From assembly GCF_019688735.1 (NCBI RefSeq), contig NZ_JAIFYA010000002.1:496001-560000 (forward strand): a stretch of DNA of 64,000 bases, in the 5' to 3' direction. This stretch comes from Thermosulfurimonas sp. F29 (GTDB lineage: Bacteria > Desulfobacterota > Thermodesulfobacteria > Thermodesulfobacteriales > Thermodesulfobacteriaceae). The position numbers were made by a program, and so were the translations under genes. How positions within the stretch are numbered: position 1 is the stretch's first letter; each line of letters opens with the position of its first letter. This document shows positions 15,749 to 43,924 of the stretch, piece by piece. The notes under the pieces are model-generated. The model was not told where the DNA came from. It was given only the letters and a program-made list of their open reading frames with translations, and ran no database searches.

Positions 15749-16810
15749 ATGCACACCGTTCGCCTGACCGTCGGTCTGGACCCCGGCTTCGGGTTGACCA
15801 AAGCCGTCTTTCGGTTCGCGGACCGGGATGAACCCCGTTCCCTGAGCTTTCCCTCGGTGCTGGCCATTGTTTCCCGTGAGGATGAATTCGCCGAGGACGG
15901 TCTGTTTCTCCCCGGCGAACTGCAGTTTGAAGCCGGAGAAACCGTTCCCTTGGACAACGGAACGCTTTGCGTGACGGGACGAACCGCAGCCGCCTTGCCC
16001 GGTGCGCGTCAACCCCAGGATTACGCTTCCTGGTTCGAAACCGCGCCGCTTCTAGCCGCAGCCGGGATCTCTCGTATCCTGCATGGCTCCCACCGCGACG
16101 TCGCTCTCATCACGGTCGTAAGCCTACCCCCCGCTGTCTGGAACAACCGTTCCGATTTCGCCGCCGCTGCGACGAAAACCCTGAAAAAAATCGTCCGTGA
16201 AACACGGGTCTTCTGCGTCCCCCAAGGGTTGGGAATCCTGAAGACCGTTTACACCGAAAACCCGGATGCCTTCGCCGACGTCGAACGATTAGCTGTAATC
16301 GACATCGGCCACAACACCACCGATGTGCTCTGTTTTCTGCAGCCCTCTCCCGGTCAGTTCCGATTCCTGCGCGGGGAAAGCCTGGCTCGATCCGGTGTGC
16401 GGGCTTTTGTGACCGAACTGCGCTCCGTTCTTGCCCGCATGGACGCGCGCTGGGCGGAGATCCCCTTCCCCGAACTGGAATACATCGCAGCCTTTCGGCG
16501 TCATCGCCTTCCCTCCGACGCCATACGCGCAGCCCTGGATCGATATCGCCCCGCCCTGGAGTCCAACCTGCGTCGACTGCTGGGTGAAGACCTCTTTGCC
16601 GCTGACGCCTTCGTCCTGGGAGGAGGCGGCGCAGCTCTGCTACCCGCGGACTTCTTCGCCTCCGTTCTCGGCGAAAAATCCTGCTCCACTTGCACCCCAC
16701 GCCTCATCAGACCCCGCGAAGTCTCCCCCGAATTGGCCAACGCTTTCGGTCAACACCTGCTGGCCGAGGAGCTGAACCGAAAAATCGCACAGGAGGTGCA
16801 CCATGACTAA
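15749..16810 (+). CDS. parM: ParM/StbA-type actin-like segregation ATPase (353 aa)
   Basis: Forms filaments that push plasmid copies apart. Actin-fold signatures: phosphate 1 LTVGLDPGFGLTKAV (residues 7-20), phosphate 2 LAVIDIGHNTTDVLCFL (around 185), and adenosine loop FVLGGGGAALL (around 292). Length fits the family. ATG at 15749 follows GAGGAGGTAGATC three bases after the DsbC-like gene. The downstream gene overlaps it by eight bases and encodes a small protein of the size of ParR/StbB, as in type II partition operons. Distinguishing ParM from MreB-like or Alp proteins needs structure or alignment. An adjacent repeated centromere (parC) was not seen between 14.8 and 17.2 kb. Confidence 0.88.
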   Translation: MHTVRLTVGLDPGFGLTKAVFRFADRDEPRSLSFPSVLAIVSREDEFAEDGLFLPGELQFEAGETVPLDNGTLCVTGRTAAALPGARQPQDYASWFETAPLLAAAGISRILHGSHRDVALITVVSLPPAVWNNRSDFAAAATKTLKKIVRETRVFCVPQGLGILKTVYTENPDAFADVERLAVIDIGHNTTDVLCFLQPSPGQFRFLRGESLARSGVRAFVTELRSVLARMDARWAEIPFPELEYIAAFRRHRLPSDAIRAALDRYRPALESNLRRLLGEDLFAADAFVLGGGGAALLPADFFASVLGEKSCSTCTPRLIRPREVSPELANAFGQHLLAEELNRKIAQEVHHD

Positions 16811-20171: not shown

Positions 20172-23087
20172 CTACATGATCCGCTGATCACTCGCCTGCT
20201 CCCACATCCACTCCGCTTCTTTACCGTTCACATTTTCGGAATCGGTTCCCCCAAAGCCATTGTCTTTCCCGTTTCCTCTTTTCGTGTTCGTCAACACCGC
20301 CAGGCGACGCTCAATAATCGGCACCGAAACTTCCACATACACCTCCCCGTTCCAGTCCACCTTGATTCCGGAAGCCACCTGCTGCCGCTTGATAACCTCC
20401 AGCACCCCCCGCATGTGCAAATCCTCCCCGCGCTCCCGCACAATGGGAACCAAATCCGACAAACCCACCACCACCTTCCTTCCCGTCTTCCCCACCTGCG
20501 ACTGCCGAGCCAAATCCCACAACGCCTGTAACACCACAATGTCCTTGTAAAAAACCGCCACCGCAACCTCACTATGCTGACGACCAATCTCCCACAAAAT
20601 TTCACCGAGATTCTGACTACCGCATACCTCAGCCAACGTCGCCAAAGGCCGAACCAACTCCAACACCCGCCCTGTTAAACACACCCCCTCCACTTCCTCT
20701 TTTTCTTCCTTCCGCTTTTCCCGCCGCACCCCTTCAAATAAAACCCGCCAGCGTTCGTCATTACCCGCATCCTGATACACTTCCCGCACCAAACGAGCAT
20801 TTTTCAAGTACGCCACCACCAGCGCCCCCCGTATCCTCTCCCAGTCCTCCGAATCCGCCGTCGGCGTCGGAAACTCCCGTATCTGCCGAACCAGATTGAT
20901 CGTTATCATCCGATCCCGTAAATCCAACAGCGGCTCCCGAAACCCCGCAAACACCTTTGGCCCGTAACAGTCAAAAACCCGAATCTCCCGCTTTCCACGA
21001 TTACCAATCATCACTATCGCCCGACGACCCGTGTCCCTCGTGTAAGTCCCCGCCAAAAAGTTCACCATCGGCTCAAAACCCCTCAAACTCAAAAACTCCG
21101 CCTGATCAATCAACAACGTCCCCCGGAAACCATCCAGTATGTCTCCTATCGCCGCCTCCGAGGGACGCGTCACCAAATGCGCATTAAAACACAACCGCTC
21201 CAAAAGCTGCATCGTCCGAGTTTTTCCGCTTTCCTTCCCCCCGAATAAAAACAAAAACGGCACCGCCGTGAATAACCGATGAAAATACGTCATCACCGTG
21301 TATAACGCTAATATCTCATAATGCGCCTGCTTGCTTAATCCCACATACTTGCGAAACAGCCCGTAAAGCTCACTATACAGCTCTCGCAAATCGCCTTTCT
21401 CCTGTCCCTCACGCACCCGAACCAGCAAATTCGTCCCCCCAACCGCATGATTCAATGACGGTAAAGCCGTCCCCGACGGACGTATTACGTATCGTTTGGA
21501 TTCCTTACCTTCCACCTCAAATACCAACAAGGGCTGACCGCGCTCCACACTCCGTATCTGAACCTCTCCGTTCACATTCAACAAATGTATGTTGAACCGC
21601 ACCGTCTCTCCCGCTACAAGTTCCTCCGCTTCATAACCCGCAACAATAATCTCCGTCCCCGTTTCCTCATCAAACACCGCATCCAGCGCCGGATGCAAAA
21701 AACAAATCTGCGGTCGCTCTAAAAACTTTCGCTTCGCCAGCCTGCGTAACCGTTTTTTCAATTCCGCCACCGTCATGCCGCGACTTTTCGCTAGCTCGAC
21801 AAGCACCTTTTCTCTTTCCTCCTCATCGTACTTCATCGCCGCATCCGCCAACAGCAGCAACTCCTCATCTTCATCCCGTAAATCGTCTCCCATGCGCTTC
21901 AGAGTACGACGCGCTTCCGCTTCCAAACCGCTCGCTCCCAAGGTCTTCGGAGCAAGCCCTTCGCTCTCCGCCGCCTCACCCTCCCAACCGTCTCCACGCG
22001 CCAGCCCCGCTACAAACTCCCTCAAGGACCGCACCCGCAAACTCCTCAACGAAACCTTCTCGCTCCCCTTGACATACTCATCAGGATCCCGACCGGCGGG
22101 AATCTCCAACACCCCCAGCTCCGTCCCTTCCTCGCTCCAAATCCGTTCCAACACATCCGCCTTACGCACCAACGTCCGCACCGCACTCCACTCCGCATCC
22201 GGCGCAAAAATCAACCGCGACGGACACCGCAGTCCGTACCTCCGAAATACCTCCGGCGTAAATCGATCCACCATTCCACCCGCCGCCACTACGGTCACAC
22301 CGTCCCCGTAAAGCCGCGTTCCCAACACCCATGCATCCGCCGCTCCCTCACAAACTATCACCACATCGCCGTCCCTGTACCGATGCAACCCGAACGGCAC
22401 CCGCGCATTCCGATCCACCGCAATATACAGCACCTTGCGATCAGGATGACTGCCTTCGGAATGCTCACGCACCAAACGCCCCCACCATCCCACAACACGC
22501 CCCGTGCCGGGCTCAATCACCGGCGCCACCAAACGCCCCACAGCCTGCCGCCATAACCTCCGCCCACGCTGCGAACCAAACACCTCCTCAAAACGCGAAC
22601 GATCCGCCTCCTCCACCACCCCCAACTGATACAACATCACCTCCATCGGCTCGAGATCATACCCCTTCACCCGACGCCATGCCCGACTCCACTCACCTTT
22701 CTGCAACACATCTTCATACAACCGATCCTTCAATACCGCATGAAGCTCCCGCACCTTTCGCAAAAACCGTTCCGTCGGATCCCTTCCGTTGGTTTGTTTT
22801 TCCGGCTGTCCCTCCGGCGCAAGCTCGGGATAGTGTTTGCGTAACCACTCCGCCGCTTCCCTGAAATCGTGCGCCGTTCCCGCTTGTAACACTACGTCCA
22901 CCGCCGAATAACTCCGTCCACACCCGAAACAGTACCCGCGCCGACCGTCAAACCGAGGCCCCCCCACCGCAAAACTGGGATGAACCTCTTGATGAAACGG
23001 ACACCGGAAAAACACGTACGTCCCCATGCGTTTCCCCGGCCCAAAACCTAAATCCTCCAGCAAACGCACCAATCCCATGGATTCCAT
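20172..23087 (-). CDS. primase-helicase fusion (DnaG-type CHC2/TOPRIM plus P-loop ATPase, 971 aa)
   Basis: Likely the element's own replication primase, joined to a helicase-like motor. The N-terminal zinc ribbon has C29-x2-H32 (RCPFHQEVHPSFAVGG) and C53-x2-C56 (YCFGCG). The TOPRIM part shows VVIVCEGAADAWVLG, AAGGMVDRFTPE, and LIFAPDAEWSAVRTL, where a DAE replaces the usual DxD. An acidic helical linker (about 390-450) follows. The second half carries a Walker A (FGGKESGKTRTM, near 615), Walker B-like GTLLIDQAEFLS, and FAGFREPLLDLRDRMITI with candidate arginine fingers. The C-terminus (EVIKRQQVASGIKVDWNGEVYVEV) resembles a winged-helix DNA-binding domain. ATG at 23087 follows GGAGGGGG. Size and layout match plasmid and phage primase-helicases such as the P4 alpha type, without close identity visible. 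Confidence 0.88.
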   Translation of the reverse strand: MESMGLVRLLEDLGFGPGKRMGTYVFFRCPFHQEVHPSFAVGGPRFDGRRGYCFGCGRSYSAVDVVLQAGTAHDFREAAEWLRKHYPELAPEGQPEKQTNGRDPTERFLRKVRELHAVLKDRLYEDVLQKGEWSRAWRRVKGYDLEPMEVMLYQLGVVEEADRSRFEEVFGSQRGRRLWRQAVGRLVAPVIEPGTGRVVGWWGRLVREHSEGSHPDRKVLYIAVDRNARVPFGLHRYRDGDVVIVCEGAADAWVLGTRLYGDGVTVVAAGGMVDRFTPEVFRRYGLRCPSRLIFAPDAEWSAVRTLVRKADVLERIWSEEGTELGVLEIPAGRDPDEYVKGSEKVSLRSLRVRSLREFVAGLARGDGWEGEAAESEGLAPKTLGASGLEAEARRTLKRMGDDLRDEDEELLLLADAAMKYDEEEREKVLVELAKSRGMTVAELKKRLRRLAKRKFLERPQICFLHPALDAVFDEETGTEIIVAGYEAEELVAGETVRFNIHLLNVNGEVQIRSVERGQPLLVFEVEGKESKRYVIRPSGTALPSLNHAVGGTNLLVRVREGQEKGDLRELYSELYGLFRKYVGLSKQAHYEILALYTVMTYFHRLFTAVPFLFLFGGKESGKTRTMQLLERLCFNAHLVTRPSEAAIGDILDGFRGTLLIDQAEFLSLRGFEPMVNFLAGTYTRDTGRRAIVMIGNRGKREIRVFDCYGPKVFAGFREPLLDLRDRMITINLVRQIREFPTPTADSEDWERIRGALVVAYLKNARLVREVYQDAGNDERWRVLFEGVRREKRKEEKEEVEGVCLTGRVLELVRPLATLAEVCGSQNLGEILWEIGRQHSEVAVAVFYKDIVVLQALWDLARQSQVGKTGRKVVVGLSDLVPIVRERGEDLHMRGVLEVIKRQQVASGIKVDWNGEVYVEVSVPIIERRLAVLTNTKRGNGKDNGFGGTDSENVNGKEAEWMWEQASDQRIM

Positions 23088-23634: not shown

Positions 23635-25297
23635 CGTCGCCCCCCCTTCTCTCCGGTCTTTTGTCAGCAAAAATCTTCATCTCACCGGGCGAGACCGTGC
23701 CCCTCAGCTCATAAAACTGCTCCAACAGCTCCACCAACAAAACCGGATTCTCCCGCACCTTCTCCGTCCAGTACCGACTGTTGGCCAGCATCGGATGCAA
23801 CCGCACCGCCGCATAGTCCAAAGCCGCTACCGTCGCTATCGGCTCCTCCCGCACCAGCTGCTTCAGCTTTTTCCAGGCCTCCCGATCCAGCACCCCCTCC
23901 GCATCCAACACCTCATAGAAGTGCTTCCTCAAAACATTGGCCACCCGCGCATTCTCCTCCTCGGCACGCTCATACGCCAAACGGAAAAACACACGAAAAC
24001 TCTCCCGGTCCCACCGGAAAAGCAGCTCCAATAACTCACGCTCCATCACCTCGTCCCGTTCAATCCTCGGAACCACCTTCTCATGATGCTCCTCTTCATC
24101 CTCTTCCCGCGGCGTGTCTTCGCAAACCTCCACCGTCCGTAACGACTTCTTGTACTCATCGAGAATCTGAAAGTGAATGCGCCCGTGTTCCACTCCCAAC
24201 CGCTGCTCAATCAAATCGTCGTTCACCGTGTACAGCCGATCAATCGACCAGAACACCCAGAACCAAAATTCCTGCTGTAAATCCTCTTGATGCGCTCGCA
24301 CCCACTCCTCATAAAACTTCGCTAAACCCGGATGCTTCTTGAAATCCTCCGCCCTGTTCTTCCACGCCCACCTCAGCTGCTGCCAGGGATGCGCTCTCCT
24401 CCGCCCCCACTCCTCCCATGCTTTGAACGCCTCCTGACGCGCCTCCCGAAACTGCTGCCACAGCTCCTCAAGCTCCTTGATCGACTGCGAATACACAATC
24501 TCAAAAGCCCGATCCCCTTCCCTCTTCGCCCTCTCCACAATGCCACGCCAGAAATTCAACACCTGATGAACATGAAACTCGTAATACTTCATCAGCGGCT
24601 CTCCCAATATGATCAGGTGCTGAATGTGGTGCACAATCCTGTTTTCTCCCTCCCGGAATACATCCGGGTACCCGAGCTCCGCATCCAACAAGTACTTGTG
24701 CAACCGATTTCGAATCTCTATGTACTTGCGCGTCGTCCGATAACGTTTGTCCAACGTATCCGGACGCGCCTCTTTTAACTCTTGCAAAGTCTCATACAGC
24801 TCTTGTAAGCTCCGCACCTCCTCATCCTCCTTGTCAAGATTGGCTCCGTAAAGCTCAAAAAATGCCTCCCGTAATATTTCGGATTTGTCCCGCTTCTTCG
24901 CCTCCTGACGCTTGCGCTCCTTCTCAAGATTTTTCTCCAACAACTCCTGCGCCGATCTCTCCCACGCCTCTATCACCTGCTTAATACGCTTAACCGTTTC
25001 CCGTTTTCTGCAGTCCACTACAGCAGAAACATCCCCCGCCGCACCCTCCGTCACACAACCATTCCCCTCTTCCGCCTTTCCGGTCACTACCGCATCATTC
25101 GTCGTGCCAAATGCGTCATCCGTATCACCGGATGTACTTGCGGACACAACATCCCCGCATTCCGTGGAACAATCTTCAACACCGGAAGAACCAGAATCGT
25201 CAGAAGCAACAAACGATGCGCAATCCGCTGCACTCTCGTTCTTTTCTTCCGCTTTCCCGCAATCCGCTTCAGCACTCACGTCGCTTCGTGCGCTCAC
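23594..25297 (-). CDS. large helical hypothetical protein (567 aa)
   Basis: GTG at 25297 overlaps the ParB-type gene stop by four bases (GTGA). The first ~95 residues are disordered (Ser/Asp/Glu/Cys-rich, e.g. ADCGKAEEKNESAADC and VEDCSTECGDVV). The remainder is densely helical and charged with many aromatic residues (LMKYYEFHVHQVLNFWRGIV, LQQEFWFWVFWSIDRLYTV). An acidic EEDEEEHHEK insertion lies near residue 400. No catalytic motif recognised. Position between ParB-like and primase-helicase suggests a partition or replication accessory factor. Confidence 0.78.
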   Translation of the reverse strand: MSARSDVSAEADCGKAEEKNESAADCASFVASDDSGSSGVEDCSTECGDVVSASTSGDTDDAFGTTNDAVVTGKAEEGNGCVTEGAAGDVSAVVDCRKRETVKRIKQVIEAWERSAQELLEKNLEKERKRQEAKKRDKSEILREAFFELYGANLDKEDEEVRSLQELYETLQELKEARPDTLDKRYRTTRKYIEIRNRLHKYLLDAELGYPDVFREGENRIVHHIQHLIILGEPLMKYYEFHVHQVLNFWRGIVERAKREGDRAFEIVYSQSIKELEELWQQFREARQEAFKAWEEWGRRRAHPWQQLRWAWKNRAEDFKKHPGLAKFYEEWVRAHQEDLQQEFWFWVFWSIDRLYTVNDDLIEQRLGVEHGRIHFQILDEYKKSLRTVEVCEDTPREEDEEEHHEKVVPRIERDEVMERELLELLFRWDRESFRVFFRLAYERAEEENARVANVLRKHFYEVLDAEGVLDREAWKKLKQLVREEPIATVAALDYAAVRLHPMLANSRYWTEKVRENPVLLVELLEQFYELRGTVSPGEMKIFADKRPERRGGDDGRDDQHQHASAS

Positions 25298-26883
25298 GAA
25301 GTCACCGAATGATCCTCCACGCGCAATCTCCCCTCCTCATCGTCCTCCTCAGCGGCCTCAGCGTTCTCATCGAAAACTATTTCGTCAACCGATGCCCCAT
25401 CCGTCGCTTCTTGGATCATTTCCACCGCATCAACCCCATCATCAATCGTATCGTGGTTGTAAAAATTGCGTTCCTGCACGGCGGCTAAATTCCGTTCGTA
25501 AGCCTCCCGCATCTTTTCAACAGACGGAACACGTTGCTTGCGCCGGGGATCCTCTTCCGGCCACTCCTGCTCGCCCAACATGAACAACACGAACGCCTTC
25601 AGCTCCTTCAACAAATGCTCCAGCTCCAAAATGCGACTCTTGTACCGCCACACCACATCCCGCGAAAACGGAGAAAACACCCGCGCGTTCCCCGCCTTCG
25701 CCGCAATCCGAATGGCGTCCATTGCCGAGGTGAGCCGATTGCATAACTCCCCCATCAGCTCCATCGGGAAATCAATCGCACGCAACAACCGCCACTCTTC
25801 CGGTGTCATCATCCTCTGTAACTCTCGACGCGCCTTCTCCGCCTCGGCACGATACTTCTCCATGCGACGATGCACTTTGTCAAATTCGCGCTGTAACTTC
25901 TGCAACCGTTCCTCCAGTTCCCGCATATCTTCCGCCGAACCACCCTGCGTATGATCCAACTTGTCCTGAAGCTCTTGAATACGTTGCTGTAGCTTCTGTA
26001 CCTTCTCCTCTTGCTCACGTTGCATCTGCTCCAGATGCTCCACTAACCGCGCCTGTACCCGCCGCTCCACTTCCTCCTCCATTGCTTTCTCCAGCTCCTC
26101 GCGCACCTGTGCCTCCACCTCTTCGCGAATTTCCTCCCTCAACGCCTCTTCATCTATTTCTTGTTCACCCAACTCTTCTTTTGTTTCCTCCATAGTCGCC
26201 AGCCGAGCCGCTACCTCCTGCTCCACCCTCTGCTCAAACTCCCGCTCCAACCGACTCCTCAACTCGCTCTCCACCTGCTGCTGTATCTCCGCCCTGATCC
26301 TTTCCAAATCAATCTCATCCGCCGTCTTCGTAGCTTTCTCGCCGGTCTCGACTCCAGACTCCTTTGAGAGACCCCAAACTACACTTTGCACCTCATCGTC
26401 ACTCCACTTCACCTGACCATGCGCCAACCTCTTAAATAATTCGGGATTAGCACGCGCTAAATGAGCTAATAAAACGACCTTGTAGTCCCAAACCCCTATC
26501 CACTTTGCTAGTTTCCGTAAACCTTCTCGGTCAAGAGGATCGACATACTTTGTCAGTATCAACCAGCTTGCCATGCGCATGCGCGTGTTCGTGTCCAAAT
26601 TGCGGCGCAGACAATTCAGGCTCACCAGCGTCTGAAGCAGTCGATTCGGTGGAAGAGACCGTACGTCCACAACCGGCACCTTTTCCAGCCCGGCCTCCCG
26701 CGCTGCCTTTAACCGATGATGCCCATCCAGAACCACCGTGCCCATGGTTACAATGGGCACCAAGAGATCACCGGTTTCCTTGATCTGCCGAACCAAAGCC
26801 TCAAAAGTTTCCGGAGGCATCGGAGGAAACTCTTTCGCCACCGGATGAACCTGCAACATGTTGACCTGACGATACTCGACCAT
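25294..26883 (-). CDS. ParB/Srx-domain protein with a long coiled coil (529 aa)
   Basis: ATG at 26883 follows TTAAGGAGGTGCGTT. Residues about 3-100 are a ParB N-terminal domain: VNMLQVHPVAKEFPPMPPET, then IVTMGTVVLDGHHRLKAARE (ParB box II-like G-HR-x-A), and SLNCLRRNLDTNTRMRMASW. ParB N-domains bind CTP and load onto parS-type DNA. A short helical domain (about 105-165) could be the DNA-binding part. From about 180 to 360 there is a nearly unbroken Glu/Arg/Gln coiled coil (RIRAEIQQQVESELRSRLER, EKVQKLQQRIQELQDKLDH), far longer than in standard ParB. The C-terminal third is helical and ends acidic. No ParA ATPase gene is visible nearby. The 1.3 kb gene-free region just upstream holds repeats that may be its binding site (inference). 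Confidence 0.8.
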   Translation of the reverse strand: MVEYRQVNMLQVHPVAKEFPPMPPETFEALVRQIKETGDLLVPIVTMGTVVLDGHHRLKAAREAGLEKVPVVDVRSLPPNRLLQTLVSLNCLRRNLDTNTRMRMASWLILTKYVDPLDREGLRKLAKWIGVWDYKVVLLAHLARANPELFKRLAHGQVKWSDDEVQSVVWGLSKESGVETGEKATKTADEIDLERIRAEIQQQVESELRSRLEREFEQRVEQEVAARLATMEETKEELGEQEIDEEALREEIREEVEAQVREELEKAMEEEVERRVQARLVEHLEQMQREQEEKVQKLQQRIQELQDKLDHTQGGSAEDMRELEERLQKLQREFDKVHRRMEKYRAEAEKARRELQRMMTPEEWRLLRAIDFPMELMGELCNRLTSAMDAIRIAAKAGNARVFSPFSRDVVWRYKSRILELEHLLKELKAFVLFMLGEQEWPEEDPRRKQRVPSVEKMREAYERNLAAVQERNFYNHDTIDDGVDAVEMIQEATDGASVDEIVFDENAEAAEEDDEEGRLRVEDHSVTS

Positions 26884-26963: not shown

Positions 26964-26993
26964 AAAAAAACCCGGCCCCATTGCGGGGCCGGG
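26964..26993 (-). terminator. rho-independent terminator (minus strand)
   Basis: On the minus strand a perfect 9-bp stem CCCGGCCCC / GGGGCCGGG with loop GCAAT is followed by TTTTTTT. It lies 80 bases upstream of the ParB-type start and would end a transcript coming through the repeat array from the coiled-coil gene at 28921. Confidence 0.9.
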
Positions 26994-27007
26994 CGAAAAA
27001 GAGAGGG

Positions 27008-27109
27008 GGCGGACGATGGCGGATGTCCTGTGGGCTATTACAATCAAAAGAAAACCTTGATGCTCCAAACAGCCTACTATCTCTGTAAGCCTTCCCGCCA
27101 TCATCCGCC
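27008..27109. repeat. 15-bp inverted repeat enclosing 72 bp
   Basis: GGCGGACGATGGCGG at 27008-27022 pairs with CCGCCATCATCCGCC at 27095-27109, with one mismatch. The interior includes AATCAAAAGAAAACC. It lies between the terminator and the palindrome array in a gene-free region. It could be a structured RNA, an origin or recombination hairpin, or the ends of a small mobile remnant. Confidence 0.6.
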
Positions 27110-27176
27110 TTCTCGTTTTGCACTAAAAAAGAAAGCCTGGTCGGAACACTTCGCCGTTGCTCTCTTTGCGCCCCCA

Positions 27177-28195
27177 AAAAACTGGCACCCCCCCTAGGGT
27201 TTTTCCCAAAATGCACGAATCGCCCAAAAGGTGGGGGGGGATGCCAGTTTTCTGTCTCGAGAAACTGGCACCCCCCCCAGGGTTTTTCCCAAAATGCACG
27301 AATCGCCCAAAAGGTGGGGGGGGATGCCAGTTTTCTGTCTCGAGAAACTGGCACCCCCCCCAGGGTTTTTCCCAAAATGCACGAATCGCCCAAAAGGTGG
27401 GGGGGGATGCCAGTTTTCTGTCTCGAGAAACTGGCACCCCCCCCAGGGTTTTTCCCAAAATGCACGAATCGCCCAAAAGGTGGGGGGGGGATGCCAGTTT
27501 TCTGTCTCGAGAAACTGGCACCCCCCCTAGGGTTTTTCCCAAAATGCACGAATCGCCCAAAAGGTGGGGGGGGATGCCAGTTTTCTGTCTCGAGAAACTG
27601 GCACCCCCCCCAGGGTTTTTCCCAAAATGCACGAATCGCCCAAAAGGTGGGGGGGGATGCCAGTTTTCTGTCTCGAGAAACTGGCACCCCCCCTAGGGTT
27701 TTTCCCAAAATGCACGAATCGCCCAAAAGGTGGGGGGGGATGCCAGTTTTCTGTCTCGAGAAACTGGCACCCCCCCTAGGGTTTTCTTCAAATCGACCAA
27801 AAGGTGGGGGGGGATGCCAGTTTTCTATCTCGAGAAACTGGCACCCCCCCTAGGGTTTTCTTCAAATCGACCAAAAGGTGGGGGGGGATGCCAGTTTTCT
27901 ATCTCGAGAAACTGGCACCCCCCCTAGGGTTTTCTTCAAATCGACCAAAAGGTGGGGGGGGATGCCAGTTTTCTATCTCGAGAAACTGGCACCCCCCCTA
28001 GGGTTTTCTTCAAATCGACCAAAAGGTGGGGGGGGATGCCAGTTTTCTATCTCGAGAAACTGGCACCCCCCCTAGGGTTTTCTTCAAATCGACCAAAAGG
28101 TGGGGGGGGATGCCAGTTTTCTGTCTCGAGAAACTGGCACCCCCCCTAGGGTTTTCTTCAAATCGACCAAAAGGTGGGGGGGGATGCCAGTTTTT
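27177..28195. repeat. 13-unit tandem array of palindromic G8/C7 elements
   Basis: Thirteen tandem boxes. Each begins AAACTGGCACCCCCCC and ends GGGGGGGATGCCAGTTT, so each box has its own terminal inverted repeats. Boxes are joined by a linker reading TCTGTCTCGAG (or TCTATCTCGAG). The first seven units have an 83-bp period (one is 84), with core AGGGTTTTTCCCAAAATGC then ACGAATCGCCCAAAAGGT. The last six have a 74-bp period with a shortened core (AGGGTTTTCTTCAAATCG then ACCAAAAGGT). Across each linker the arms fold into a hairpin of 16 pairs with one bulged A. The boxes are nearly identical, so this is not CRISPR. Possible roles: partition site, replication iterons, or tandemly amplified mobile miniature elements. 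The open frames across it on both strands are artefacts of the period. Confidence 0.95.
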
Positions 28196-28216
28196 GCGCC
28201 TTCCCCAAAGAATCCC

Positions 28217-28921
28217 TCAATTTTTAGGGTGATGGGAGAAAGGCAATTGTTGTCCCAAAGCTTCCAGAAGAACCGAAAAACCATCGCAAGTCGAAGCCAT
28301 CTCTTTTCGCAACTCCTCAAATTTTTCTCGACGCTTCCTACGTATCCCTTGGAAAACTTCCGCGAACCTTTCCTTCCAACGACGAAAAATCTCCGCTTTT
28401 CGCGTGGACAAATTTTCCAGCTCCTGAACAGTTTGTCTAAGATCCGCTTGCACACTCTTTTTTTCTTGTCGCAGTTCTCTCAAGGCCTGCTGAATGCGCT
28501 TTTTTTCTTCCTGTAAGGTCCGCAACTTCTCAGCCAGCTGTTCCTGCCGCCTCTCTAGCTCCCGCTTCTGGTTCTCTACCTTCTCCTTCTGTAGCTTCAA
28601 CCGAGCAAGCCGCATCTGGAGGTCGCGAATGCGTTCCCGTACCTGCTTGTACTCCCAATACCCTTCCAGCACATCCGAATCCTCAAATACCTCCTTCAAA
28701 TCCGTGATAATCGTGATCCGGTGCAAAGGTTCCTGCTCATTGGAAGACCTCCACAGCCGTTCTAGTTCCTCCGCATCCCGCGCACTAAACCCCAGGTACC
28801 GCCATACCAACCTCAAACGCCGGTAAACCTTCTGTTTCCTGTCGCCTACAACCATTTCCGCCTTCTTGAACGCCAGATTCGTTAAACGTCTCAACACGTG
28901 CTCCTTTACCCAATCCTGCAT
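28217..28921 (-). CDS. coiled-coil hypothetical protein (234 aa)
   Basis: ATG at 28921 follows AAAGGAGGGAGGGTT. The N-terminal 90 residues are globular and helical (VLRRLTNLAFKKAEMVVG, VYRRLRLVWRYLGFSARD). Residues about 90-185 form a continuous coiled coil (LQMRLARLKLQKEKVENQKR, LRTLQEEKKRIQQALREL). A basic C-terminus (GIRRKRREKFEELRKE) follows. It lies directly upstream of the palindrome array and transcribes toward it; the terminator after the array would end its message. A DNA-bridging role at the array is possible but unproven. Confidence 0.78.
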   Translation of the reverse strand: MQDWVKEHVLRRLTNLAFKKAEMVVGDRKQKVYRRLRLVWRYLGFSARDAEELERLWRSSNEQEPLHRITIITDLKEVFEDSDVLEGYWEYKQVRERIRDLQMRLARLKLQKEKVENQKRELERRQEQLAEKLRTLQEEKKRIQQALRELRQEKKSVQADLRQTVQELENLSTRKAEIFRRWKERFAEVFQGIRRKRREKFEELRKEMASTCDGFSVLLEALGQQLPFSHHPKN

Positions 28922-30582: not shown

Positions 30583-31388
30583 CCTGTCCGGTCGGGCGTC
30601 AGTAGCTCGAACACTTCCACCACCTCTTCGCCCACTTCATCTGGTTCCTCTCGACCGTTCGCTGAGGTCTTTTGCTCCGCCGGTTCGGGCAGCAGGTCGA
30701 AAAAGTTCGTCATGCTGCGAATTTCTCGCAGGGTGTGTTGCTCCAGCTCTTTGGGATCGCTGATCAGCTGCAGGGTTTCCCCCCGCTGAAGGCAGCGTTC
30801 GAAAAAGTTGATGAACATGCGTCTGCGGTCCTTGTCGAATTTGCCGAGTTTGCGGGCTATGACGTTGGGCGGCACGTTTCGATCCTCTCGCACTCTGGCG
30901 AACCATTCGACCAGTTTTTTCTCGTCGGTGTCGGTTTCGGGAGGGGGCAGTTTCATGCGGCGGACGAGATCCTGGAAGGAAAGTTTCCGGTATTTTCGGA
31001 TGACGGTGTTTTCGGTCAGGGGACGACGGCGCAGGAAATAAACCAGGCACACCGCACCACACTCGACGGTTAGGGCGATGATCAACCGGGAAAGGCTCGG
31101 TCCGTACTGCGATAGGGTGCGTTGGAAAAATTCCCAGCTCACGGGATGGTGGAGGGCCGTTTGAAAGGCGCTGAGACCGAGAAGCAGCGCGTATCGGCTG
31201 TGCTCGAAGTCGAGAGCCAGAAGCGCTCCGATGGCTCTTATGCATGCGTAAGCCAGGAAGACCGGTGCGCGGAAAACGGGGACGTATGTCCAGAAGACCC
31301 AGAGACTGAACCCGGTGGCGCCCAGCAGAACCGAGAGGAAAACAACGTTCGATAGTCCGCCACCGCTGGTATGAGATTCGCGACTCAT
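30579..31388 (-). CDS. membrane protein, possible DotM/TrbA-type coupling partner (269 aa)
   Basis: The N-terminal half has three to four membrane helices (VVFLSVLLGATGFSLWVFWT, FLAYACIRAIGALLALDF, a helix near 90-125 including LIIALTVECGAVCLVYFL). A cytoplasmic domain follows (KYRKLSFQDLVRRMKLPPPE, RKLGKFDKDRRRMFINFFER) with an acidic tail. This plan resembles DotM/IcmP/TrbA of Dot-type coupling complexes, but no signature residue was identified, so the name is only a suggestion. The ATG overlaps the stop of the DotC-like lipoprotein (ATGA), so both are co-expressed. Confidence 0.65.
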   Translation of the reverse strand: MSRESHTSGGGLSNVVFLSVLLGATGFSLWVFWTYVPVFRAPVFLAYACIRAIGALLALDFEHSRYALLLGLSAFQTALHHPVSWEFFQRTLSQYGPSLSRLIIALTVECGAVCLVYFLRRRPLTENTVIRKYRKLSFQDLVRRMKLPPPETDTDEKKLVEWFARVREDRNVPPNVIARKLGKFDKDRRRMFINFFERCLQRGETLQLISDPKELEQHTLREIRSMTNFFDLLPEPAEQKTSANGREEPDEVGEEVVEVFELLTPDRTG

Positions 31389-35654: not shown

Positions 35655-35853
35655 GAGCCACCTCCTTAACGAACTCAAGGGGTCCCTTCACCTTTATTGT
35701 AACCAGACAGCGCGCCAGGGCGTCAAGTTCCTCATCGGTGAGTTCGCCGAGGATTTCCCGCGCTTCGGGGATCTCGCTTAGCGCCTGCGCCGCCGTTCGG
35801 ACCGCTTCCTCCAGAGCCATCACGAAAACCAGAGCCCGCTCGATCGGTTCCAC
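35569..35853 (-). CDS. small hypothetical protein (94 aa)
   Basis: GTG at 35853 has AAGGAAGG seven bases upstream; the region further upstream would read antisense to the large ATPase gene, so the longer frame is rejected. The product is a helical MALEEAVRTAAQALSEIPEA followed by REILGELTDEELDALARCLV, a strand VTIKVKGPLEFVKEV, and a basic tail. It could be a small DNA-binding or regulatory protein, but no motif is clear. Divergent from the DotO/VirB4-type gene by only 34 bp. Confidence 0.62.
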   Translation of the reverse strand: MEPIERALVFVMALEEAVRTAAQALSEIPEAREILGELTDEELDALARCLVTIKVKGPLEFVKEVARAAGTEISRATRTEKPERTPSPRFSVSR

Positions 35854-35887
35854 CTCTCCCCTTCCTTTCTTTTTCGGTTTTCTCGAA
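35854..35887. promoter_or_regulatory. 34-bp divergent gap with a CCGAAAAAGAAAGG leader
   Basis: On the minus strand the gap reads CGAGAAAACCGAAAAAGAAA before the ribosome site of the 94-aa gene. No ribosome site is seen for the plus-strand ATPase start at 35888. The gap is too short to hold two ordinary divergent promoters, so at least one must lie in coding sequence. Confidence 0.4.
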
Positions 35888-38608
35888 ATGTTCAGGAAAA
35901 GAACGCTGGCCGGACTGTTTCCGCTTTTTTGGCCGGAGGATTCTGGGTGGTGTCTTTCCGACGGGGGATACGCCTCGCCGCTGGTCGAGTTTCGGGGACC
36001 GCCCCTAGAAAGCCTGGGGGAGAATGATCTTTCGGTTCCCGTGGAGCGGTTCGCTTCTCTCCTGCGGGGACGCACGGGAGAGTTCTGCGTGTCCTGGCTG
36101 CTGGCGTCGTTTCCCTTCCCGGATGCGGAGACGGTGCGGGGATGGCGGAACACGATGCGGACCGAACCGCCGGACCCGACGCGGTTCACCATGCACCGAC
36201 GCGTGTTTCTCCAAGTGTCGGCCCCTTTCGATCCGGGACGGTTCGGCGACGACCGGTCCCGCATGTTGGCGGAACGGCGCGCCCTGCGGACCTCGATCTC
36301 GGCGCTGCTGGATGAGATCCGCCGCCTGGGTGCGGAGACCCGTCCCCTTTCTCATGAAGAAACCCTGAGCGCGGTCGCTTTGCTGCTGCATCCCTACCGC
36401 TGGCGCGATGTCTTCTGGCGAGGCGAGCTCCCCCCGCGGTTCGACCCCGTGAGGCGTCTTCCCGTTCTGTCCGACACGGTGTTTCTGGGGGAAGGGCGGT
36501 TCTTCTACGATGGGTACTGTTTTTCGTGCTGGTGGCTGGCCAATTTTCGCCGGTTCGATGCGGAGGACTTCTGGCAGGCCTGGGTGGAGGCCTCGGACCT
36601 GCGGGAGGAGGAGGGGTGTGCGAGTCTGTACCTTGTGCACTTCACGCCGCCTCACGGAGGGGCCTTTGAGGAAAAGCTCAAGACGGAGGCGTCCCTGGCG
36701 CGGGCGACGGCTTTCGGGAGGGCTCGGGAGGACAACCTGCTCAAAAGCCGCGCCATCGAAGCCTTCCTGCGGGCGGGAGCCGAAAGGGGCGAAACCGTGG
36801 TGCAGACCGCGGGTTACTGCGTGGTGTGCGCACCGGACGTCCAGCTCCTCCGACGGGCGGAAACCCGAATCAGAAGCGCCTTCAGCGCTGCGGGTGTGGA
36901 TCTTTACTGCGATGTGGGGTATGCGGTCGAGGCCCGGTTCGTCTGGCCCTTCGGCGCGGGTTATCGTATTCCCGAATCCCGACGCCTGTACCTGCTCGCC
37001 GGGCAGTCCGCACGGATAACGCCGGGGCTTTTCGGTTCCTTTGTCGGGGACCGCGAAAACCCGGTGATACTGGGACGCAACCGTCAGGGTGAACCCTGCG
37101 GGTTCAATCCCGTTTCGTCCCGTGCGGCCAAGTGGTGCGGGTTCATCGTAGCGCCTTCGGGAAGCGGTAAGACCTTTCTGGCTCAAAACCTGATCGCCGG
37201 ACTTTGGCGTTCGGTTCACGAGCCCTTCATCGGGGTAGTGGACTTCGCCCGGTACCCTTCGTATCAGGCCCTGATCGAGACCCTAGGCGGAGACTGCCGT
37301 GTCGTTTCCTTGGACGAGGACACCGAGGTGCTCAATCCGCTGGAGTATCCGATTTTTTATCGGGAGCCGCCGGAGGATCTGGTGGCGTTCCTTTCGGAGC
37401 GGTTTTTCCCCGCAGCGCTTGAAGGCATGAGCATGACCGAACGCAAGTTACTGGAGAAAGCGATACGTCGGGCTTACCGCATACGTCTTGACCTTCGCGA
37501 GCAACCCCGCGCGGTGGACCCCTACGCTTCGCCTGCGCCGGAGTTTTTGAACTTTCACACCTATCTGGAGGCGCGGGACTTCTATGCGGAGACCTGGCGA
37601 CGGACCCGGAAACCGGAGGCCCTGGCTCTGGCCCGGCTGGCGCACGCCTGGGCCTTGCCTCGCCCGGAGGACCTGCTGGAGGTGCTTCAGTCACCGGGAT
37701 TCGCCGTGACGGAGGAGGACCGCCGCGACGCGCGGTCCGTGCATCGGCGGTTGACCGCTTTCCTCACCGGGGCACGGGATCGGATCTTCAACCGCGCACC
37801 CGCGCAACAGGTCGTCTTCCGATCCGATCCGTTCTACGTGTGGGGGGGACGCCTGTTGGGGTTTCGCGATCTGTGCGCCTTGGTGTTCATGCTGGTATGG
37901 CGCAGGATGCTTTACTGGTCCGGGGCTCTGGCCCGCGAGGATCAGGTGGACACCGGTCTCCTGGACGAACGGGAGCAACGGCTTTTCGTGCGGAAGAAGG
38001 TGTTCATCGTGGACGAGTTCCACAATTTGAGGGGAGTCCCCGCGGCTTTGGCGGAGCTGGTGGATGTGGCCCGTCAGGGACGCACCATCAACGTGTCCGC
38101 CTGGCTAATTTCTCAGAGCCTGAGCGACCTGGACGCCGAGCAGATGAAAATCTTTGCGGAAAACAGCGGATTCAAAGTGTTCCTGCGCCTCACTTCGCCG
38201 GAGAACCCTCAAACCGCTCCGGTGAACGAGGCGGCGGAATTTTTGGGGTTGGATGAGCGACGCAGGGAACTGCTGAGGTCCCTGACGCTTACTTCGCGGT
38301 ACTCCGAGGCGTTCGTGGTGATGGAGGGTTTGGGAGCCGGGGTGTTGAGGTTCGTTCCCTCGGCGGAGGAGCGCTGGATCGGCACCACCCGTCGGGAGGA
38401 GACCGTTCTGCGGGATGCCTGCGTACGGATGCTTCTTCAGGAGATGCCTTCGCTTCCGCGGAGGCGGGCTTTCCTGGTGACGGTGCGGGTGCTGGCCGAG
38501 TTTTACCCCGAAGGGGCGCCCGGCGAGGTTTCCCCGGAGGCCGTGCGGGAACGGTTTCTGCGCCGGGCGCGGGATTTTCTCAGCGCGACGGAGCACAGCA
38601 GCGCTTGA
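35888..38608 (+). CDS. VirB4/TraU/DotO-type secretion ATPase (906 aa)
   Basis: Energises type IV secretion at the inner membrane. ATG at 35888 (MFRKRTLAGLFPLFWPE) is chosen as the frame before it is antisense to the 94-aa gene. The N-terminal 400 residues are the non-catalytic VirB4-type part (RRVFLQVSAPF, AEDFWQAWVEASDLREEEG). The motor shows Walker A APSGSGKTFLA (about 422-429), FIGVVDFARYPS, and CRVVSLDEDTEVLNPLEYP. Walker B is KVFIVDEFHNLRG (near 705), followed by QGRTINVSAWLISQSLSDL and the terminal FLRLTSPENPQTA. This order is typical of VirB4 and the IncI TraU/DotO family. Its end overlaps the convergent 179-aa gene by 29 bases. Confidence 0.88.
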   Translation: MFRKRTLAGLFPLFWPEDSGWCLSDGGYASPLVEFRGPPLESLGENDLSVPVERFASLLRGRTGEFCVSWLLASFPFPDAETVRGWRNTMRTEPPDPTRFTMHRRVFLQVSAPFDPGRFGDDRSRMLAERRALRTSISALLDEIRRLGAETRPLSHEETLSAVALLLHPYRWRDVFWRGELPPRFDPVRRLPVLSDTVFLGEGRFFYDGYCFSCWWLANFRRFDAEDFWQAWVEASDLREEEGCASLYLVHFTPPHGGAFEEKLKTEASLARATAFGRAREDNLLKSRAIEAFLRAGAERGETVVQTAGYCVVCAPDVQLLRRAETRIRSAFSAAGVDLYCDVGYAVEARFVWPFGAGYRIPESRRLYLLAGQSARITPGLFGSFVGDRENPVILGRNRQGEPCGFNPVSSRAAKWCGFIVAPSGSGKTFLAQNLIAGLWRSVHEPFIGVVDFARYPSYQALIETLGGDCRVVSLDEDTEVLNPLEYPIFYREPPEDLVAFLSERFFPAALEGMSMTERKLLEKAIRRAYRIRLDLREQPRAVDPYASPAPEFLNFHTYLEARDFYAETWRRTRKPEALALARLAHAWALPRPEDLLEVLQSPGFAVTEEDRRDARSVHRRLTAFLTGARDRIFNRAPAQQVVFRSDPFYVWGGRLLGFRDLCALVFMLVWRRMLYWSGALAREDQVDTGLLDEREQRLFVRKKVFIVDEFHNLRGVPAALAELVDVARQGRTINVSAWLISQSLSDLDAEQMKIFAENSGFKVFLRLTSPENPQTAPVNEAAEFLGLDERRRELLRSLTLTSRYSEAFVVMEGLGAGVLRFVPSAEERWIGTTRREETVLRDACVRMLLQEMPSLPRRRAFLVTVRVLAEFYPEGAPGEVSPEAVRERFLRRARDFLSATEHSSA

Positions 38609-41433: not shown

Positions 41434-41703
41434 GTGGTACGGATTCGGGTGGATGCGTCTTTGTCGGAGCCTTTTGTGGTGCGTGACGGGGAGGGGATCG
41501 TGCTGTGGACGCCGCCGGAGACCGATGGTGGGAGGCTTCTTCACGAATGCTTGCATGTCCGGCTGATGGAGGAGGGAAGAATTCCGCCGCCGGAGGAGGA
41601 AGAGGTCGTGCGGGATCTTGAGGCGAGGATCGAGGGGGAGATCGAGCGGAAGATCAGGCGCCGGTTGCCAGGCGTTCGGGGAGACGACGCGCCTCTTCGA
41701 TGA
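41434..41703 (+). CDS. mini-protein with HExxH zinc-protease motif (about 89 aa)
   Basis: The product has a strand-rich start (VVRIRVDASLSEPFVVRDGE) and GIVLWTPPETDGGRLLHECLHVRLMEEG, where HECLH is a HExxH zinc site. Acidic EEEEVVRDLEARI follows, which could supply the third ligand as in ImmA/IrrE or gluzincin-like proteases. The start is uncertain: the GTG at 41434 sits directly after GGAAAAGAA, and a GTG at 41449 is possible. Only about 90 residues, so just the metal-binding helix pair fits. Its end overlaps the T4CP gene by 50 bases. It might cleave a repressor or pilus component, but that is only a guess. Confidence 0.5.
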   Translation: MVRIRVDASLSEPFVVRDGEGIVLWTPPETDGGRLLHECLHVRLMEEGRIPPPEEEEVVRDLEARIEGEIERKIRRRLPGVRGDDAPLR

Positions 41704-43888
41704 TGCGGAGGGCGGTTCGGGTGGGTTTCACCAGGTCGGCGGGGTTCACGGTGAGGCGGTCCGCAAGCCGGGTCCGTTCCTGTTCCAGGATTTGGCGGAT
41801 GCGGGCATCCACGCGGGAGGTGCCCGCGGCGTTGCGCGCGAACACCTGGCGTGCGGTCGGAGCCCGAAGCTCGAAAAGCCGCGCCAGATAAAGCGTTCTG
41901 TTCTCCAAGAGACGGAGCACCTCCCGAAAAACTTCAGGGGAACCCAACGGAACCCGTCCCGTGTAGTTTCGCCGGAACCACTCCCACAGGTCACGCACGA
42001 GGGTGTCGCTTTTTTCGGAGGTTGCGGTTTCGGTCTTTTCGAGTTCTCCGGTTGCGGTTCGGTTCGCGGTTGACGGGGCCTCGGACGCGGAGGGTTCGGT
42101 GTTGTCCTCTCGGTTTTCCGGGAGGGGGAGGACTTTCACGGGCTTGAGTAGGCCGAGGCTTTTGACTTTGCGGCCTTCCATGAAGGGCACCCGGAAGGGC
42201 ACGAGGCGGTCCTCGTATATGAGGTAGGCCTGACCGGGACCGAGGGCGGTAAGGTCCAGGATACGCAGGCGATCCCGTTCTTGGACGGACCAGGATTCAG
42301 GGACCTCGTCGCGCGCAAGACCCAGAAATCCTTGTTCCCGTCGGACCGAACCGGGAACGAGCTTCCATTCCTTGCCGCTTCGTTCGATGGCTATCTCGGC
42401 GGTCTTCTTGTCCTCGATCTTCATGAAGATTTTGATGTTGGTGTTGGCCACCAGGGCTTCGCCTTCGGCCTGATCCCGCATGAGACGGCCCAGTTCCTGG
42501 GCGGAGATGCCCACGGCGTAGTTCAGGGACCGCGCCTGGGCCAGCACGGTGGAAAACCCCTTCACGGCGTACGAACCGTATTCGTCGAGGATGCATACAT
42601 GCGGCAGAAGGGGGCGCACCCGCCGCACCTGACGTTCGATCTCCTTGGCCTCGCCCACCACGGTTTTTCCCAGAAGCTCGTTGAGGGCGATCTTGATCAC
42701 GGCGAGGATCATCTTGCCCATCTGCTGGAGAGTGGCTTCCGATTTCCCCAGCGAGGGAAGGAGCACGTAGAGGATGCGGGAGTTTTTGATCACGTCCAGC
42801 ATGTCTATGTCGGGGTTTCGCGTGGCGGTTATGGCGCCGTAGGTTCCTCCGAGGAGGTCGAGGGCGGCGTCCCACTGCTGAGCGGCGAACCCGTGCTGCT
42901 TCACCACCTGTTCCGTTTCAAGGCTCACGTCTGCGTCGTCCATCTCCTGCGAATCCGCGCCTCCCGCCTGTTTCTTCATCTGGTCGAGCAGTTTTTCCCA
43001 GGGTCCCAGCTGATCCAGATACGAAATGAGGCGCTGACCCACGGGAACACCGAATTCGTCTTTCTCCGGGATGATGTTGTTGCGGACCATGTCCGCGAAC
43101 CGGAGGACGTTTCTCAGGCTGAGGGCTTCCTTGACGTCCCAGAAGGTGAAGGGGCGGTAGAGGGGTTTGTAACGGCCCCGGTCGTCGTGGTCGCGGAGCC
43201 AGACCAGGATGGTGAGCACGCTTCTCATGAGGACGAGTCCGCGCTGTTGCCAGTATTGACCGTCGCCGGAGACCTCCGGCAGGAAGTTGGCGCATATTTC
43301 CGTGAGGGCGTCGGCGTCTCCGCGCAGAAGGGGATTGAAGGTGTTGGACTGCCGGGGGTCCAAGAAGTTGAGCACCAGAAAGTCGTCCCGGCGGTCGCAT
43401 TCCTCCACCAGCTGGCAGAAGACCTCGAAGGTGTCCTTGGTGTCGGATTTTCCGTCCACGAAGGTGGCACCGCCGCCCACGTGCATGACGGAGTAGAGCA
43501 GTTTGCGTATGAGGGTGGTTTTTCCCGCTCCGGTGGTACCCAGTATGAGAAAGTGGCGGGTGAGCTTGTCGAAGGGGATGATGAGATCCCATCCCTCGGC
43601 GGTTCGTCCCAGGTGCACGAAGGGAACCAGTCCCAAGGGGTAGCGGGGGTCGTTCTTCTTGCGTTCGACGGTGAAGAGGGGACGGGGTTCCCGTTTGCGG
43701 GCGTAGGAGGCGTATCCCAGGAGTCCCGCGAAGGGAAGCAGGCCGAGCTCAGGGGTGCGGAGGGCTATCCCGGCGAGGGCGGGAATGAGGGCGGCCAGCG
43801 GGAGCAACAGTTCGGCGGTACGGCGCCGTGCGCGCCATTCTTCCGGACGGGTCGTCCCCAAATGCGTGCGCTCCGGTTTGAGACCCAT
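41654..43888 (-). CDS. type IV coupling protein, VirD4/DotL/TrbC class (744 aa)
   Basis: Docks the relaxase-DNA complex to the secretion channel. ATG at 43888 (MGLKPERTHL); upstream in-frame TTG is less likely. N-terminal helices (AELLLPLAALIPALAGIALR, LGLLPFAGLLGYASY) precede IPFDKLTRHFLILGTTGAGKTTLIRKLL (Walker A GTTGAGKT, 117-124). Then FVDGKSDTKDTFEVF, FNPLLRGDADALTEI, VKNSRILYVLLPSLGKSEAT-like helices, and Walker B HVCILDEYGSYA. LNYAVGISAQELGRLMRD and ANTNIKIFMKIEDKKTAEIA follow. The overall order matches TraD/DotL family NTPases, with an extra C-terminal domain (about 560-744) as in DotL. It is divergent from the pil operon across a 65-bp gap with a palindrome. Confidence 0.88.
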   Translation of the reverse strand: MGLKPERTHLGTTRPEEWRARRRTAELLLPLAALIPALAGIALRTPELGLLPFAGLLGYASYARKREPRPLFTVERKKNDPRYPLGLVPFVHLGRTAEGWDLIIPFDKLTRHFLILGTTGAGKTTLIRKLLYSVMHVGGGATFVDGKSDTKDTFEVFCQLVEECDRRDDFLVLNFLDPRQSNTFNPLLRGDADALTEICANFLPEVSGDGQYWQQRGLVLMRSVLTILVWLRDHDDRGRYKPLYRPFTFWDVKEALSLRNVLRFADMVRNNIIPEKDEFGVPVGQRLISYLDQLGPWEKLLDQMKKQAGGADSQEMDDADVSLETEQVVKQHGFAAQQWDAALDLLGGTYGAITATRNPDIDMLDVIKNSRILYVLLPSLGKSEATLQQMGKMILAVIKIALNELLGKTVVGEAKEIERQVRRVRPLLPHVCILDEYGSYAVKGFSTVLAQARSLNYAVGISAQELGRLMRDQAEGEALVANTNIKIFMKIEDKKTAEIAIERSGKEWKLVPGSVRREQGFLGLARDEVPESWSVQERDRLRILDLTALGPGQAYLIYEDRLVPFRVPFMEGRKVKSLGLLKPVKVLPLPENREDNTEPSASEAPSTANRTATGELEKTETATSEKSDTLVRDLWEWFRRNYTGRVPLGSPEVFREVLRLLENRTLYLARLFELRAPTARQVFARNAAGTSRVDARIRQILEQERTRLADRLTVNPADLVKPTRTALRIIEEARRLPERLATGA

Positions 43889-43897
43889 GCCGCCACT

Positions 43898-43924
43898 ACA
43901 CAAAAGAACCCGGTTCTTTTGTGT
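43898..43924. promoter_or_regulatory. near-perfect palindrome ACACAAAAGAACC-C-GGTTCTTTTGTGT
   Basis: Two 13-base arms (43898-43910, 43912-43924) around one base, midway between the divergent T4CP start (43888) and pil-type start (43954). Arms face each other the opposite way to most other gaps here. A size of 27 bp with two half-sites one turn apart is typical of a dimeric repressor operator. Confidence 0.6.

Follow-up and report, generated by a model that had tools for sequence, protein, structure and literature searches.

A tandem array of palindromic boxes in the putative origin region of a 120-kb ICE: a probable docking site for inheritance proteins

The locus and its element

Thirteen near-identical palindromic boxes—a copy number taken from one assembly—stand in tandem over about 1 kb, upstream of an operon for a ParB_N-domain protein and a primase–helicase and with a coiled-coil gene on the other side. 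The window, that is the whole stretch of 64,000 nucleotides analysed here, corresponds to C2:496001-560000 of the 2.35-Mb genome of Thermosulfurimonas sp. F29. Coordinates are those of the window unless a contig is named, and the features are as follows.

15749-16810, plus strand: actin-like protein of the ParM/Alp type; no other candidate for a segregation motor was seen in the ICE
20172-23087, minus strand: DnaG-like primase with a CHC2 zinc ribbon, in fusion with a Walker-type helicase-like region (GGKESGKT); homologue on contig C4
23594-25297, minus strand: second operon gene, no family match
25294-26883, minus strand: ParB_N-domain protein with a long coiled coil, first operon gene beside the array; below the Pfam cut-off, PHROG ParB-like matches to 1e-6
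26970-26994, minus strand: intrinsic terminator for leftward transcripts through the array
27008-27109, minus strand: inverted repeat with 15-bp arms (27008-27022 and 27095-27109), forming a long structured hairpin that immediately precedes the terminator
27165-27178, plus strand: left copy of the imperfect direct repeat TTTGCGC---CCCCAAA, abutting the array
27179-28193, no strand: tandem array of 13 palindromic boxes, from repeat analysis
27179-27760, no strand: seven-unit 83/84-bp block, core TTTTTCCCAAAATGCACGAATCGCCCAAAAGG
27242-27270, no strand: first of 12 linker palindromes, TGCCAGTTT-N11-AAACTGGCA, the rest following at 83/84- or 74-bp steps
27761-28193, no strand: six-unit 74-bp block with the shorter, partly substituted core TTTTCTTCAAATCGACCAAAAGG
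28193-28209, plus strand: right copy of the flanking direct repeat, TTTGCGCCTTCCCCAAA
28217-28921, minus strand: coiled-coil protein that has a helical head; its gene reads toward the array
30681, no strand: minimum of the cumulative GC skew of the circular ICE (bootstrap 95% 22.9-32.9 kb)

The borders of the surrounding element are marked by a 44-bp direct repeat of the 3' end of tRNA-Lys, found at window coordinates -22104 and 98285 (C2:473896 and C2:594285), with a tyrosine integrase just inside the left copy. The window is therefore part of an integrative conjugative element (ICE) of ~120.4 kb, whose circle measures 120,388 bp. Its T4SS genes comprise a VirB4/TraC-like gene (35738-38608), a coupling protein (41654-43903) and GspE/DotB-type ATPases; a secretin, pilus genes, two topoisomerases and the actin-like gene are also present. 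No relaxase was identified among the proteins scanned, for which reason the array was not read as an oriT. Scans of a genome contig collection found no relatives of the T4SS ATPase or the primase–helicase. The right part of the ICE carries an IS605-type OrfB/TnpB gene (L026:185-1486) and an RRXRR-HNH endonuclease gene (L026:4133-5545), in this order. A cargo block (window -16259 to -4955) has its counterpart at 40829-57221 of contig C4, a second replicon of the same genome: the proteins of this block are mostly 60-96% identical, whereas the core genes of ICE and C4 are about 30% identical at the protein level. This difference suggests that cargo may have been exchanged recently between the two elements.

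The ParB_N match of the 25294-26883 product has an E value of 8e-4. ParB_N proteins of relatives align to its N-terminal domain only, and the structure model of this N-terminus is unusable (pLDDT 52). For the actin-like protein, matches to PF17989 and PF21522 (E 5e-5 and 1e-4) fall just below the curated cut-offs. No ParR-like partner for it was identified in the ICE, and no centromere-type repeat array was found beside its gene at 13.8-19 kb, the boxes being about 11 kb away. Inside the ICE there is neither an AAA_31 match, as expected of ParA, nor a match for a DnaA-like gene. Viral contigs gave no match for ParB_N or primase–helicase alone and only zinc-ribbon matches for the primase–helicase alignment; other loci that share the helicase part have no comparable repeat array in the stretches examined.

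Architecture and uniqueness of the array

The array begins with seven 83/84-bp boxes, starting at 27179, 27262, 27345, 27428, 27512, 27595 and 27678 (83, 83, 83, 84, 83, 83 and 83 bp long, in this order), and continues with six 74-bp boxes, starting at 27761, 27835, 27909, 27983, 28057 and 28131, the final one without linker. This mapping bears out the seven-plus-six arrangement proposed in the earlier note. A Tandem Repeats Finder score of 1505, against 50-130 for all other arrays in the window, excludes an origin by chance. The left half-site reads AAACTGGCA and the right half-site TGCCAGTTT in 13/13 units, such that the 9-bp half-site—AAACTGGCA or its complement—is identical in 26/26 instances. 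The 12 linkers, with the consensus TCTRTCTCGAG, read TCTGTCTCGAG in eight cases and TCTATCTCGAG in four, with one G/A as the sole difference. The C-tract is C7 in nine units and C8 in four, and the G-tract is G8 in 12 units and G9 in one. The 74-bp core had been described as the longer core minus 9 bases; the 9-bp loss is there, but several substitutions separate the cores as well. Within each block, the units are nearly homogeneous. The two unit types read as two older lineages, each locally amplified.

At 10.5 bp/turn, the 83/84-bp units correspond to 7.9-8.0 helical turns and the 74-bp units to 7.05, and the helical phase is hence kept across both unit types. Adjacent arms can fold into hairpins on either strand (z about -5). 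The earlier note counted 12 such hairpins of 16 pairs; the stems do reach 16 pairs or more, but carry one bulged A. Formation of quadruplexes, also raised before, is weakly supported by the layout and was set aside: a G8 run comes once in every 74-84 bp, and extra minus-strand GGG runs occur in the 83-bp type only. Several further identities were rejected. A CRISPR array would bear unique spacers, of which there are none, the cores being identical within each block; a protein-coding repeat conflicts with unit lengths of 83 and 74, which are not multiples of 3, and with stops in all six frames; and a known structured RNA found no Rfam family match.

Both ends of the array are symmetric, falling at inverted-repeat tips, and both are touched by the imperfect flanking direct repeat (14/17 bp). 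Among random 25-bp flank pairs, 116/60000 score as high (about 0.2%). This repeat may be the trace of a discrete insertion of the array or its founder. The flanking genes, the terminator and the second inverted repeat are as the earlier note described them. On the minus strand, 26970-27109 forms a long hairpin with inner stems directly before the intrinsic terminator (z -5.25 together)—possibly a small RNA or leader.

The array is present once in its genome, and every exact or one-mismatch arm in this genome falls within it. Isolated boxes are lacking in the genome, and the rest of the ICE likewise has no single box. Array DNA has no homologue in 99 relatives, the exact palindrome pattern is absent from 395 phylum genomes, and the array was not found in 72,556 plasmids or 50,697 phages. 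IMG/VR holds no array, its matches to one arm or linker palindrome being single sites. Neither the box sequence nor its layout turned up in any other genome, plasmid, phage or viral contig searched. A dispersed miniature inverted-repeat element was set aside, as there are no scattered copies in this genome or the other genomes searched.

Replication signal and a sister replicon

The usual view is that an ICE, should it replicate, does so from its transfer origin. The cumulative GC skew of this ICE has its minimum at 30,681 and its maximum at 87,805, which are 47% of the circle apart. Block bootstrapping gives a median of 28.9 kb for the minimum, and the array lies inside the 95% interval—at 2.5 kb from the minimum itself, within an interval that spans about 10 kb. 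Left of the skew switch, plus-strand GC3 skew is negative for 16/18 plus-strand and 23/25 minus-strand ORFs; right of it, the skew is not negative for 24/26 plus-strand and 12/15 minus-strand ORFs. The sign of the third-position skew hence tracks position and not gene strand. We infer from this pattern, which is that expected of bidirectional replication, a fixed origin near the array. Between 22.5 and 33 kb, no direct-repeat family other than the array exceeds two copies, and the window holds no exact DnaA-box-like site (TTWTNCACA). A 120-kb ICE that combines a plasmid-grade bidirectional skew with a centromere- or origin-like array makes a testable case of an ICE as a true replicon.

Contig C4 (145 kb) bears a related operon of primase–helicase, two small genes and a ParB_N/coiled-coil protein. 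The primase–helicases of ICE and C4 share 34% identity along their length, and the skew minimum of C4 likewise lies just upstream of its operon. The slot next to the operon holds DnaA-like, ParA and ParB genes on C4, and the array and the coiled-coil gene in the ICE; no palindromic-box array was seen upstream of or beside the C4 operon. The array therefore sits where the sister replicon keeps its apparent initiation and partition cassette. As a paralogous replicon that shares the operon and bears ParA/ParB/DnaA-like genes where the ICE has the array, C4 lends itself to comparison.

Some further observations concern C4 itself. Its replicon module (110191-123700) comprises the primase–helicase operon, DnaA-like, ParA and ParB genes and a possible actin-like gene. 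Repeats containing TATCGATA at 123759-123818 and 104704-104764 could be partition sites of C4. Two CRISPR-like arrays with the same repeat lie at 124312-125500 and about 137685-138154, one of them with an identical duplicated spacer; none of their spacers matches the ICE stretch compared. The contig ends in runs of 44 T (1-44) and 43 T (145223-145265), which may have arisen as an artefact when a circular molecule was closed.

Candidate functions and known systems

We consider the array probably a docking site for proteins that copy or segregate the ICE. A sopC-like centromere is the most likely form of such a locus, given the palindromic half-sites, the integral helical turns of both unit lengths and the neighbouring ParB_N/coiled-coil gene; the chief alternative is a set of origin iterons. 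As a whole, the proposal of a cis-acting inheritance locus of a bidirectionally replicating circular 120-kb ICE, acting as a sopC-like centromere, is tentative, and we rate it a little short of an even chance. The ICE would be copied bidirectionally as a circle, with the array located near its origin and upstream of the replication operon. A dimeric DNA-binding protein would find palindromic half-sites in each box, and all 13 together would give rise to one large nucleoprotein complex. The likeliest ligand would be the ParB_N/coiled-coil product, possibly together with the coiled-coil product of 28217-28921. This complex would serve as the centromere and would probably pass the circle to the actin-like protein.

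Several observations count for an inheritance locus: the ICE borders, the position of the array inside the interval of a skew minimum that is independent of gene strand, and its standing there as the sole repeat family of more than two copies, upstream of the ParB_N and primase–helicase operon. C4 shares operon and skew position and has in the slot DnaA-like, ParA and ParB genes, which are missing from the ICE. The half-sites are identical in all units although the cores differ, with helical phase kept, and the layout of sopC is likewise one of tandem repeats holding inverted repeats. On the other hand, homogenisation of the tandem array, rather than selection, may account for the identity of the half-sites. 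The C4 operon manages without an array, such that its presence is not a general requirement of the operon proteins, and DNA binding by the ParB_N product is putative, given its weak match and the unusable N-terminus model. The missing ParA gene, the distance of the actin-like gene and its missing ParR partner, the lack of single boxes elsewhere in the ICE, and the distance to the skew minimum with its broad interval count against the proposal as well. The earlier note had considered a centromere, iterons or miniature elements. The first two are favoured by the skew-inferred origin, the ICE boundaries, the position upstream of the operon and the missing ParA and DnaA matches in the ICE, while the dispersed miniature element is disfavoured by the lack of isolated boxes.

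As origin iterons, the boxes would be bound by an ICE initiator—the primase–helicase or an operon partner being candidates—and would set firing and copy number, with partition located elsewhere. The skew interval, with its one repeat family of more than two copies, fits this explanation, as do the missing DnaA-like gene, the missing TTWTNCACA site and the primase fused to a helicase-like region encoded just downstream. Usual iterons measure about 20 bp, however, which the units of 74-84 bp, each palindromic, far exceed. The AT content of the array reaches at most 62% per 60 bp, with no strongly AT-rich stretch, and no such array accompanies the C4 primase–helicase, which resembles its ICE counterpart over its length. 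An iteron origin would be expected to have short direct repeats that are not palindromic, a DnaA box and an AT-rich region; the array does not conform to this picture, and we judge this explanation unlikely.

The array could also be a selfish or neutral satellite, that is a miniature element with terminal inverted repeats that inserted and then multiplied through slippage or unequal exchange, without function. The symmetric ends abutted by copies of TTTGCGC---CCCCAAA agree with this, local amplification typically leaves blocks such as the 7 x 83 followed by 6 x 74 seen here, and no array homologue exists elsewhere in the collections searched. Yet the genome holds no isolated box, and the linker differs from the flanking repeat, which argues that the units were not joined by target duplication. 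Both unit lengths keep the helical phase, and a location at the origin would be coincidence; we hold a satellite to be improbable. A device at the RNA level, in which leftward transcription from gene 28217 would meet a chain of hairpins and the terminator as an insulator or attenuator protecting origin or operon, can draw on about a dozen strong GC-rich hairpins with an A-tract and a T-tract beside each on both strands and on the structured element downstream, but deserves very little credence, since, in contrast to usual intrinsic terminators, the T-tracts lie 3-5 nt past the stem and the loop has 11 nt, a regular terminator is already present, Rfam gives no match, and helical phasing is not expected for RNA.

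Among known systems, iteron-type origins likewise have tandem repeats in the origin region beside a replication gene; the unit of the array has about four times the length of theirs and holds a palindrome. The locus also resembles the KfrA-type coiled-coil DNA-binding proteins of IncP/IncU plasmids with their repeated operators, in that a coiled-coil protein with a helical head is found by repeats and a ParB-like gene (PMC7783346). The repeats of KfrA-RA3 are 9 bp long, however, and the array lies downstream of the 28217 gene and not on its promoter; a KfrA-type operator was rejected, as this protein has no KfrA match in Pfam or NCBIfam. With type II systems (ParM/ParR/parC), the ICE shares the actin-like ATPase, but not centromere repeats next to the actin gene. 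Active partition of an ICE is already known from SXT/R391, whose actin-type srpMRC likewise combines an actin-like protein with a candidate centromere (PMC4489591). In the present ICE, a ParR-like gene was not identified and the array is remote from the actin gene; judged by its GC skew, this ICE is more likely to replicate in theta mode than from oriT.

The layout resembles that of sopC (parS_F, type Ia) of the F plasmid, where twelve 43-bp tandem repeats holding an inverted repeat lie by a ParB_N-type gene on a low-copy replicon (PMC8465637, PMC5016525); sopC-type sites carry short inverted repeats inside longer iterons (PMC5016525). The array differs in its longer units of two lengths, in its 9-bp half-sites with G8/C7 tracts, in its residence on an ICE without ParA partner and in its position upstream of the parB-like gene, whereas sopC lies downstream. 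Because ParA, one defining test, is lacking, we do not file the array as a member of the type Ia par loci; what we claim is a similar mode of action. In its most specific form, the proposal is a long shot: a new kind of segregation locus, in which a giant palindromic-box centromere located at an ICE's theta origin would be recognised by a ParB_N/coiled-coil adaptor and linked to an actin-like motor rather than to ParA. If true, such a centromere would join ParB-type site recognition to actin-type movement.
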